The notes under the pieces were generated by a model. It did no database searches. It was not told the DNA's origin and was given only the letters and a program-made list of their open reading frames with translations. This document shows positions 43,314 through 45,849 of a stretch of 64,000 nt of DNA, one piece after another. The position numbers were made by a program, and so were the translations under genes. Within the stretch, counting starts at the first letter, position 1. Every line of letters starts with the position of its first letter. This stretch comes from Myroides oncorhynchi (GTDB taxonomy: Bacteria; Bacteroidota; Bacteroidia; Flavobacteriales; Flavobacteriaceae), in contig NZ_JAJJMP010000001.1 of assembly GCF_020905415.1 (NCBI RefSeq), positions 3,173,501 to 3,237,500 of the forward strand. The letters run 5' to 3'.

Positions 43314-43826
43314 CTAACGAGGTTTGAACTGGCTAAAAGTTCCATCTTTATAAAAAATCACCACTTGCTCTATGTCTCCTTTATTTGATCCAAATGGAAA
43401 ATTAGAGAAGTGTTGTTCCATTTCTTTCTCTTCTTTTTCCTCTTGAATTTCTCTCTTTATTTCAGTGTGAAAATGTTCGTTTTCTTCTTTCTTTTTTGGT
43501 GAATTAACGACAGTGTCATCTGTCGAAAAAAGATCATTTGAATATGGATTTCCAACAGGAGGAGAGGGTGGAGTTTGGATAATTTTAGTGATCGTAGTCG
43601 TGTTATCTTTCTCTAAATAATTACCTGTTCCCTTGAGAAGCCACTCTAAACTTAGCTCTGAAAAAGCATCGTTAATCTTTAGAATAAAATCTAAACTAGG
43701 TTTGTTTCTACCTGACAGGAGGTGGGATAAACTCGACCTCTGAACACCAATCTTGTCAGCAAAAGAAGAGGCTGTATAGTCATAGTTGTGAAGTATAAAT
43801 TCAAGTCTGTTTACAAAGTTATCCAT
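43314..43826 (-). CDS. XRE-family helix-turn-helix regulator
   Basis: 170 residues from the ATG at 43826. The N-terminal XRE/Cro domain (about 1-65) has FADKIGVQRSSLSHLLSGRNKPSLDFILKI, including the recognition helix, then LEWLLKGTGNYL. The remainder is a low-complexity, Glu/Lys-rich linker (EEKEEKEMEQ) and a conserved C-terminal IEQVVIFYKDGTFSQFKPR. Longer frames upstream run through the operator region and are not believable. Its promoter and 5' region lie within a dense array of palindromes, so it is very likely autoregulated and also controls the divergent carboxypeptidase gene. Confidence 0.88.
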   Translation of the reverse strand: MDNFVNRLEFILHNYDYTASSFADKIGVQRSSLSHLLSGRNKPSLDFILKINDAFSELSLEWLLKGTGNYLEKDNTTTITKIIQTPPSPPVGNPYSNDLFSTDDTVVNSPKKKEENEHFHTEIKREIQEEKEEKEMEQHFSNFPFGSNKGDIEQVVIFYKDGTFSQFKPR

Positions 43827-43833
43827 GGCAATT

Positions 43834-44111
43834 TGTTTATAAAAGTAAATAGTTCTATTGTTTACAAATGTAATATTGAATAGAATATTACAAATGTATA
43901 CATATTTATACTTGTAAACAATAGTAAAGTTTAGGTTTATATAAAAGTACATAACTTATTGATATACAATAATTAGACATTACTTGTTTATAAATGTAAA
44001 CTTCTGAAGCATCACTAGTAGAGATGTAAGTGCATATTGGTTACGGATGTAAACAAAAATAAAAAACAATGTGTTTACAGATGTAAAAAATAAGTTGTTT
44101 ACATTTGTAAT
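43834..44111. promoter_or_regulatory. array of at least eight TGTTTACAnnTGTAAA-like palindromic operators
   Basis: Copies at 43834-43849, 43859-43874, 43885-43900, 43905-43920, 43985-44000, 44038-44053, 44072-44087 and 44096-44111 fit TGTTTACAnATGTAAA with zero to four mismatches. The closest are TGTTTACAAATGTAAT, TGTTTACAGATGTAAA and TGTTTATAAATGTAAA. Several neighbouring copies are 20-26 bases apart. Weaker matches lie at about 43808 (inside the XRE coding start), 43935 and 44015. The array fills the gap between the divergent XRE and M14 genes, so the XRE protein is the probable binder. Confidence 0.75.
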
Positions 44112-44129
44112 ATCAAATATAAATACACA

Positions 44130-45281
44130 ATGAACTATACTTCTCTAGTAAATAACTATACCAATAAATATGTGTTTGGCAGATATGTCACCCTTAAGAA
44201 TATCACTCCATTTCTAGAAGACTTGAATCAAAACTTTAAGGTAGAAGATAGGGGAAAATCTGTAGAAGATCGATCGATTAAGACCGTGACTTGGGGTGTT
44301 GGATCTACGCGTATTTTTATGTGGTCACAGATGCACGGTAACGAATCAACCACTACAAAAGGAGTTCTTGATTTCTTATTGATGTTGAATGAAAACACGG
44401 AGAGTTTTATAAGGGATTGGCATAGTAAGTTTACCTTTTTAATCGTGCCTATTTTGAATCCTGATGGAGCACATAATTACACCCGTGTCAATGCTAATCA
44501 AGTAGACTTAAATAGAGATTCTATAGATCTATCTCAGCCAGAAAGTAGATTGTTAAGAAAGTTATTCGACGACTTTAAGCCCGATTATGCTTTTAATCTT
44601 CACGATCAGCGTACTATCTTTGGAGTAGGTGATACAGGTAAGCCCGCTACGCTCTCTTTTTTGGCTCCATCATATAATGAGGAAAGAGAGATTAATGCAA
44701 ATAGACTTGAGGCAATCAAGCTAATCGCGGAGATCAATAAAGAACTTCAGGAAGTTATCCCTGGACAAGTAGGGCGTTTTGACGATGGATTTAACATGAA
44801 CTGTATAGGGGATTATTTTCAGTCTCAGGGTGTTCCGACCATACTATTTGAAGCAGGTCATTATCCTAATGATTATGATCGAGAGATAAGCCGTAAGCTT
44901 GTTTTTAGAAGTCTTATTGTGGCAGTTTATGCATTGTATCAGGGGAATTATGTTAATAACAGCTTAGATTCGTATTTAAATGTTCCAGAAAATGAAAAAA
45001 ACTTCAACGATGTTAGTATAGAGTACGTTAAATGCAAGGAAACTAGAGAAGAGTATATTGTGAAAATTCAATATTTAGAGCAATTAGAGAAAGAATGTGT
45101 TAAATTTTATCCTATTATTGTTGATATTCTTAAAAAAGAAAGTAAATTTGTCCATCACGCTATTAAGAGAGAGCTCTTTTTTAAAGATAACTTGATTAAT
45201 GTAAGTGAAGTAATCAATAAGGAATTGACAGATTATGTTGAAATAGACAGTGTAATGGTTAGTGAATTATTAAAAAAATAA
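44130..45281 (+). CDS. M14-family zinc carboxypeptidase
   Basis: 383 residues without an evident signal peptide. Zinc ligands are His69 and Glu72 (QMHGNES) and His158 (FNLHDQRT); the catalytic Glu241 is in LFEAGHYPND. NPDGAHNYTRVNANQVDLNRD is the characteristic arginine/asparagine substrate-binding segment. It would remove C-terminal residues from peptides in the cytosol. It is divergent from the XRE regulator; its ATG lies 18 bases after the last operator copy, so binding there should block its transcription. No hairpin terminator is clear after it. Confidence 0.9.
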   Translation: MNYTSLVNNYTNKYVFGRYVTLKNITPFLEDLNQNFKVEDRGKSVEDRSIKTVTWGVGSTRIFMWSQMHGNESTTTKGVLDFLLMLNENTESFIRDWHSKFTFLIVPILNPDGAHNYTRVNANQVDLNRDSIDLSQPESRLLRKLFDDFKPDYAFNLHDQRTIFGVGDTGKPATLSFLAPSYNEEREINANRLEAIKLIAEINKELQEVIPGQVGRFDDGFNMNCIGDYFQSQGVPTILFEAGHYPNDYDREISRKLVFRSLIVAVYALYQGNYVNNSLDSYLNVPENEKNFNDVSIEYVKCKETREEYIVKIQYLEQLEKECVKFYPIIVDILKKESKFVHHAIKRELFFKDNLINVSEVINKELTDYVEIDSVMVSELLKK

Positions 45282-45369
45282 TAAAGTTTGTTTTTTTTTC
45301 AGAAAATATAAATTTTATTTAGTATTATTGTACAGAATTATAGATTATAATAAGATAAATAATTGATTT

Positions 45370-45849
45370 ATGAGTAAATTTCGTTTAGATGAAATCGATC
45401 ACCAAATCTTAGATATGTTGATTGACAATACGAGAGTTCCTTTTACAGATATAGCAAAGAAACTATTAATCTCTGCAGGTACTGTTCACGTTCGTGTTAA
45501 GAAAATGGAGGACGCTGGAATTATCCAAGGATCTTCATTAACTTTAGACTACGAAAAATTAGGATATGCATTTATTGCATACATTGGAATTTTCTTACAT
45601 AATACGTCACAAACTAAGTTTGTATTAGAGCGTATTAATGAGATTCCTTTCGTTACCGTGGCTCACGTTACTACAGGTAAGTTTAATGTATTCTGTAAAA
45701 TTAGAGCAAAAAACACACGTCATGCAAAAGAAGTTATTTACATGATTGATGATATTGAAGGAGTTTACAGAACTGAATCAATGATTTCTCTTGAAGAAAG
45801 TATCAATGATAAAAAACGCTTAATGCACACGATCTTTAAAGAACTTTAA
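45370..45849 (+). CDS. Lrp/AsnC-family transcriptional regulator
   Basis: 159 residues. N-terminal AsnC-type winged helix (IDHQILDMLIDNTRVPFTDIAKKLLISAGTVHVRVKKMEDAGII) and C-terminal RAM ligand-binding domain (FIAYIGIFLHNT to RTESMISLEES). These proteins form octamers and respond to amino acids. It is 88 bases after the carboxypeptidase gene on the same strand and has its own terminator. Confidence 0.94.
   Translation: MSKFRLDEIDHQILDMLIDNTRVPFTDIAKKLLISAGTVHVRVKKMEDAGIIQGSSLTLDYEKLGYAFIAYIGIFLHNTSQTKFVLERINEIPFVTVAHVTTGKFNVFCKIRAKNTRHAKEVIYMIDDIEGVYRTESMISLEESINDKKRLMHTIFKEL

Follow-up and report, generated by a model that had tools for sequence, protein, structure and literature searches.

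What is known of repression through DNA looping comes mainly from a small number of model systems. The lambda CI repressor loops the DNA between OR and OL, which lie kilobases apart, repression loops assisted by IHF or HU act at the gal operon and others, and Lrp proteins wrap phased sites. Here we describe a locus within a 64,000-nucleotide stretch of the Myroides oncorhynchi genome (that is, the window) in which a 303-bp gap (43827–44129) separates the genes for an XRE-type regulator and an M14 metallocarboxypeptidase and carries an array of short palindromes. On the basis of the comparisons below, we propose that the XRE protein is probably an autorepressor that bridges the promoters of both genes in a loop, with assistance from an IHF/HU-like bend. 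A search of the open literature (titles and starts of abstracts) turned up no paper dealing with this gap, the XRE regulator family or IHF looping in Bacteroidetes.

The XRE regulator (43314–43826, minus strand; 170 amino acids) falls among the HTH_3 regulators (Pfam PF01381, E 9.6e-8; 32.4 bits against a gathering cut-off of 23). Its single-chain AF2 model predicts a five-helix HTH (helices 4–65; pLDDT 85–95), a low-confidence linker (45–57) and a C-terminal beta hairpin at 155–167 (85–87), with an HTH fold near those of 434 Cro/repressor, SinR and DdrO; the best Foldseek match, to 3op9, has an E of 4.2e-3, and all matches lie above an E of 0.001 and cover about the HTH only. No Pfam match to an S24 or CI-like C-terminal domain was found in the protein, which carries the linker and hairpin instead. 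The M14 protein (44130–45281, plus strand; 383 amino acids; PF00246, E 7.8e-11) has H69, E72, N128, R129, H158 and E241 invariant in 37 aligned sequences, residues of the zinc site, with its ligands and catalytic glutamate, that together with the PF00246 match and the model place the protein in the M14 family. Its predicted structure (AF2 mean pLDDT 95.5; best Foldseek match 4b6z, E 5.7e-16) is a confident carboxypeptidase fold, no signal peptide was seen by eye, and NCBIfam points weakly to murein peptide amidase MpaA, with 19.9 bits where the cut-off is 157. An Lrp/AsnC-type regulator gene (45370–45849, plus strand; PF13412, PF01037) begins 88 bp after the M14 gene (45282–45369) and may share its control.

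The sites in the gap are TTAC-N4-GTAA palindromes. Three perfect copies of TTACAnnTGTAA, seven with at most one mismatch and nine with at most two are present, against means of 0.01 (maximum 1), 0.20 (maximum 3) and 1.43 (maximum 7), respectively, in 2,000 dinucleotide shuffles, none of which reached the counts of the gap at the three levels. At the XRE end, a weak operator-like site with two mismatches (43837–43848) is followed by a perfect TTACAAATGTAA operator (43862–43873; the XRE-side anchor site) and by two operators with one mismatch each (43888–43899 and 43906–43917). The M14 end comprises an operator with one mismatch (44041–44052), a perfect operator 213 bp from 43862 (44075–44086; the M14-side anchor site) and a further perfect operator (44099–44110) that lies 24 bp past this anchor and is separated from the M14 start codon by 19 bp, so that the spacing within this end, 34 then 24 bp, is the commonest among relatives. 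Between the two ends lie one operator with one mismatch (43988–43999) and one very weak site with two mismatches (44018–44029), which is absent from the list for a close relative (L031) and is probably due to chance. The earlier note, which was made from the window alone, had read eight copies here, and all are present, the 16-mer starts (43834, 43859, 43885, 43905, 43985, 44038, 44072 and 44096) agreeing with the 12-mer cores within 2 bases. Its spacing of 20–26 bases holds for part of the array only (start-to-start distances are 25, 26, 18, 82, 53, 34 and 24), and its remark that good copies are missing from the rest of the window stands, as there are no perfect and five one-mismatch 12-mers outside the gap, never two within 300 bp.

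Relatives were gathered with the XRE protein, which gave 60 genomes, and with the M14 protein, for which 80 named loci were retained out of 582 that were confirmed; the nearest named relative is Myroides sp. N17-2 (89% in M14). The two genes occur together in 72 loci, divergently in all, with a gap of 270–330 bp in 67. The same palindromes are found at similar places in these gaps (expected counts there were taken from single-base shuffles), and across 68 distinct XRE–M14 gaps of 250–330 bp the commonest site spacings are 24 and 33–36 bp; comparison of related gaps, which the earlier note had called for, thus finds the divergent pair and its sites recurring in the same layout. The XRE gene is part of the locus in 44 of the 80 M14 loci and missing from the other 36. 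Two or more sites (at most one mismatch, within 450 bp before M14) are present in 43 of the former, whereas 29 of the latter have no site (including L082, which has just 98 bp upstream), six have one and a single locus has four (L088, whose contig begins 356 bp before M14, so that an XRE gene may be cut off there). Being present with XRE and absent without it, the sites go with XRE. Many of the M14 genes in loci without XRE (L053, L060, L062, L065 and others) are preceded by a same-strand gene of about 183–193 amino acids with an MKKxLYxFIF-like start, as if M14 had moved into another transcription unit there.

A strict search for two close sites in the 60 genomes (182 Mb) gave 62 places, 49 of which lie within 800 bp of an XRE gene; the remaining 13 are the background of the pair search. 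Such a pair is found at XRE in 32 of the 46 genomes that have the gene (14 are without), and somewhere in 2 of the 14 genomes that lack it. Within the order, 175 of 296 genomes carry a member of the XRE family at an E of 1e-15; at the level of the class, an XRE relative at an E of 1e-12 is found in 29 of 119 genomes (our own included), with a pair at the gene in 11 and none in 18, and 43 of 61 pair places lie away from XRE. Given the association of sites with the gene, the array is very probably a dedicated operator array for the adjacent XRE protein, as the earlier note had predicted. Its further description as a switch controlling a peptidase appears too narrow: XRE loci of other orders have at least two upstream sites (at most one mismatch) in 17 of 26 cases (a raw count, with no shuffle comparison), M14 is present in the fetched stretch of none of the 26, and the Lrp/AsnC gene may fall under the same control. 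Since sites are kept at XRE in other orders in the absence of M14, self-regulation looks older than the tie to M14.

The sites also coincide with predicted promoters. In flavobacteria, sigma-A promoters have TAnnTTTG as their -7 box, located between -12 and -5 (PMC9723704), and matches to this consensus, both reading TACATTTG, lie within the XRE-side anchor operator for the XRE promoter (43865–43872, minus strand) and within the last operator for the M14 promoter (44100–44107, plus strand). Among the relatives, the last operator contains TAnnTTTG directed toward M14 in 55 of 67 gaps, and in 55 of 67 there are 13–24 nt between its end and the M14 start codon. Its sequence is TTACTTTTGTAA in 34 of 67, a form that deviates from the palindrome but keeps the box. 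Toward XRE, the box is present in the XRE-side operator in 54 of 55 cases. Because 65 of 158 inner sites also contain TAnnTTTG, the box partly comes along with the motif. Of the 67 gaps, 43 have an additional site lying over the XRE start codon, with the ATG at its centre as read from the gap sequences. The suggestion that XRE is under part of the array and M14 under its other end is supported by the overlap with both predicted promoters, and, as the sites overlap both -7 boxes, XRE binding should repress both XRE and M14.

The array is best described as two ends. Among 92 distinct gaps in which the distance between ends could be measured, 80 have no site (at most one mismatch) between the ends, and 12, including that of the window (43988), have one; the middle spans 123–222 bp (median 167). 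At least two sites are present at the XRE end in 75 of the 92 and one good site in 17, two sites at the M14 end having been the entry condition for measurement. The end-to-end distance, taken from the XRE-side to the M14-side anchor site, is 213 bp or about 20 helical turns in the window. A first measurement of 53 gaps gave 190, 201, 212–214, 223–225 and 231–236 bp, and the full set of 92, for which 20 loci were fetched in addition and others came from the search of the order, gave 178, 190, 200–201, 211–215, 219 (once), 222–225, 231–236 and 244 bp. The fitted period is 10.59 bp, and 91 of the 92 gaps fall within a quarter turn of this grid, which was fitted on the same 92 gaps; none of 20,000 random sets of 21 values was as periodic as the observed one, a significance that is overstated because the rows share kinship. 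On a grid preset from the first set (213 bp, 10.7), 36 of 39 distinct gaps outside that set lie within a quarter turn, the misfits being L172 (219 bp), L287 (231 bp) and L311 (178 bp), of which L172 is off phase on every grid tried. Two operator groups at a helically constrained distance, as would be expected of a CI-type looping repressor, are thus found on both the fitted and the preset grid.

A pattern search of the genus with the distance left open between 187 and 247 bp found a match in 235 of 398 genomes (163 are without). The same distance steps appear in the 148 genomes listed of the 235 matching, and 129 of the 130 with new handles fit, although some of these 130 repeat earlier loci (the gaps of G395 and G434 are those of L051 and L031, respectively) and six matches (G012, G032, G415, G200, G395 and G307) start at the second XRE-side site. 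The independent support for the phase is accordingly the 36 of 39 gaps given above. Altogether there are 113 distinct gaps of 200–360 bp, with 33 duplicates and three gaps of other length excluded from the distance set; 21 of the 113 could not be measured (eight have no 24-bp pair, two no XRE-side site and 11 neither), and as these gaps, which include those of Zobellia, Arenibacter and Maribacter, have no usable anchors, the layout is not universal. On a tree built quickly from XRE and M14 pieces joined together, which carries long-branch warnings, the turn class changes 18 times, and the starred branches alone force six changes for each of the three commonest classes. The quantised end-to-end distance and the empty middles point to looping rather than to a continuous filament.

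The middle of the gap carries a further conserved element. The E. coli IHF consensus is WATCARNNNNTTR (PMC8421141), and a match is present at 43952–43964 (minus strand), the weight of which comes from the comparison of gaps only, as the window alone has 15 matches to the consensus where 14 are expected (that is, no excess). The element is about 40 bp long, and its core, YAANNNNYTGATW, is the reverse complement of this consensus. A profile of the element, whose seed was the matches at 70–95 nt but which was free to match anywhere in the middle, places its best match 75–79 or 87–90 nt away from the XRE-side site in all 92 gaps; from the element to the M14-side site, the distance takes steps of 90, 103, 112–113, 120, 122–124, 131–135 or 144–145 nt. 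The E. coli consensus in its published form (with Y) occurs exactly in the window and in 43 of the 92 gaps, with all 44 matches at 70–95 nt, against four and four for altered spacers, four for the reversed and three for the complemented consensus, and 3.0 (maximum 7) for shuffles; the narrower form (T only), which was tried first, occurs in 25 of 92 against 2.3. In the other orientation the consensus is found in 3 of 92 gaps, with no excess. The 21 gaps outside the distance test contain seven exact and ten relaxed matches and none in the other orientation (raw counts, with no shuffles), so that 49 of 92 measured gaps and 14 of 21 left-out gaps are without an exact match. Two proteins of the HU/IHF family (PF00216) are encoded in the genome, neither of which reaches the cut-off of any IHF or HU model that it matched; the second is closest to IHF alpha, with 69.9 bits where the cut-off is 111. 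The mid element may be bent by a protein of the IHF/HU family.

A genome-wide search for the palindrome, a check that the earlier note had recommended, finds that single copies are not confined to this gap. The pattern TTTACAnnTGTAA has 12 strand matches at 10 places in the genome, three of them in the gap, against three matches for the reversed pattern, and the looser 14-mer TTTACAnnTGTAAA with at most one mismatch is found at no fewer than 75 places against 15 for its reversed control; with the looser 14-mers scattered over the genome, single sites are not rare and it is the cluster that is. Fifteen of 20 scattered sites picked for reading in our own genome lie inside reading frames. In 52 stretches (chosen partly among the matches listed), 36 of 49 perfect 14-mers lie within reading frames and 13 outside, one of the 13 being an XRE–M14 array (L266). 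No large regulon was seen among the 20 scattered sites read in our own genome and these 52 stretches. In our own genome, a perfect TTACAAATGTAA (G000:C1:154053-154066; L202) precedes an AhpC-like gene, so named by eye, by about 40 bp; it could mark a remote XRE target or be a -7 box that arose by chance. A perfect TTTACAnnTGTAAA is located about 250–270 bp upstream of a transketolase-like gene (also named by eye) in two genomes, G010 and G003 (L224 and L271); both genes stay leads that may prove to be targets. Two other repeats were encountered: TTACACGTGT is repeated at G122:C71:766-985 and on C59 of this class-level relative, which has no XRE match at an E of 1e-12, and TTTACACAAGTAAA or its reverse complement occurs in at least nine places in our own genome (for example, C1:83480, 475152 and 540196), possibly as a separate repeat or operator.

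Several readings of the array other than a loop were weighed. Plain autorepression, in which XRE would act at each promoter separately and the phasing would stem from, for example, supercoiling-coupled divergent promoters, draws on the overlap of the operators with the -7 boxes, where repression would need no loop, and on the XRE loci of other orders, 17 of 26 of which keep sites in the absence of M14; in-phase distances over several turn classes and an oriented, phased mid element are nevertheless not what it predicts, and we consider it rather unlikely, if still to be reckoned with. The earlier note had instead envisaged cooperative or filament-like binding across the array. Such a coating of the whole gap would suit the density of sites in M. 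oncorhynchi, with its one good mid site, and the dozen gaps that have a middle site, yet it fits poorly with the 80 of 92 gaps that have none, with spacings that are fixed inside the ends (24 and 33–36 bp) while the middle varies by whole turns, and with the helically quantised end-to-end distance; we therefore regard filament-like binding as very improbable.

The binder itself could also be another protein. The Lrp/AsnC protein encoded after M14 is matched in 80 of 80 M14 loci, but the array is not kept wherever this gene is, as 35 of the 36 M14 loci without XRE have fewer than two sites despite Lrp, and sites occur at XRE genes even where the locus lacks M14; the constant presence of Lrp alongside sites that occur only where XRE does argues against Lrp as the binder, which we hold to be highly improbable. 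A LexA-like S24 repressor of Bacteroidetes has the attraction of an identical TTAC/GTAA half-site, the Elizabethkingia protein binding TTAC-AAATT-GTAA according to PMC8565304. The spacer, however, is N4 here and N5 there, changes to the spacer are reported in that paper to have abolished binding for two other non-canonical LexA members, the local XRE protein has no S24 match, and the clustered sites sit at the XRE gene. With neither an S24 peptidase domain nor an N5-spaced palindrome found, the locus does not belong with the non-canonical LexA systems, and we give binding by such a repressor almost no credence. Hardly more credible is a role in chromosome structure, as a partition or replication landmark, in place of gene control: clustered palindromes are indeed found mostly at one place per genome, but they lie over promoter boxes and, in many cases, over the XRE start codon, and they are not seen where XRE is absent.

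Returning to the looped autorepressor, we suggest that the gap would control a divergent switch that regulates itself, with XRE dimers binding the TTACAnnTGTAA palindromes over the predicted -7 boxes of the XRE and M14 promoters and keeping both genes, and perhaps the lrp gene downstream, off or low. The operators of the two ends, about 20 turns apart here, would be held on the same face of the DNA, so that XRE oligomers could draw the ends together into a loop, as lambda CI does at OR and OL, and bending of the oriented mid-gap element by an IHF/HU-family protein would make loop closure easier. What can be read directly in the genomes is the presence of the sites, the way they go with XRE, the overlap with promoter-like boxes, the helical quantisation and the mid-gap element. 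The broader proposal is of a three-part, phase-locked nucleoprotein switch in many Flavobacteriaceae (that is, XRE operators at two promoters with an IHF-like bend between them, and arms that vary almost only by whole turns through repeated length changes) that would control XRE and a carboxypeptidase with Lrp; this we put close to an even call, and if anything slightly short of one. If true, it would place an IHF-type looping repressor in Bacteroidota, with a loop geometry that is readable straight from genomes. In this one gap, evolution appears to have performed the classic helical-insertion experiment anew, given 18 class changes on the quick tree with phase kept in 91 of 92 gaps, and this record of phase makes looping directly testable in Bacteroidota and offers a testable function for an uncharacterised family of XRE regulators.

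Set against known systems, the locus resembles lambda CI at OR/OL and 434 repressor/Cro in its HTH_3-type fold, in short palindromes grouped over two divergent promoters and in having two distant groups of sites. Unlike lambda CI, however, the XRE protein has a linker and short hairpin in place of the CI C-terminal domain, and the groups lie about 180–245 bp rather than kilobases apart; the likeness is limited to the HTH, and we claim no homology past it. The non-canonical LexA of Bacteroidetes, as described in PMC8565304, is likewise a self-regulating repressor, with TTAC/GTAA half-sites in one member, yet it differs in its S24 peptidase domain, N5 spacers and DNA-repair regulon. The M14 protein is similar to bacterial M14 carboxypeptidases, with 4b6z (Burkholderia cenocepacia) as its best Foldseek match, 4a37 (Pseudomonas aeruginosa) among the best 50 and the zinc-site residues kept, although its identity to these two is about 14–20% with a TM of about 0.5. 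As in gal-type loops assisted by IHF or HU, two phased operators flank a site for an architectural protein; in contrast to them, the bender is predicted from a consensus only, XRE appears to control itself as well, and the layout is seen across many Flavobacteriaceae genomes.
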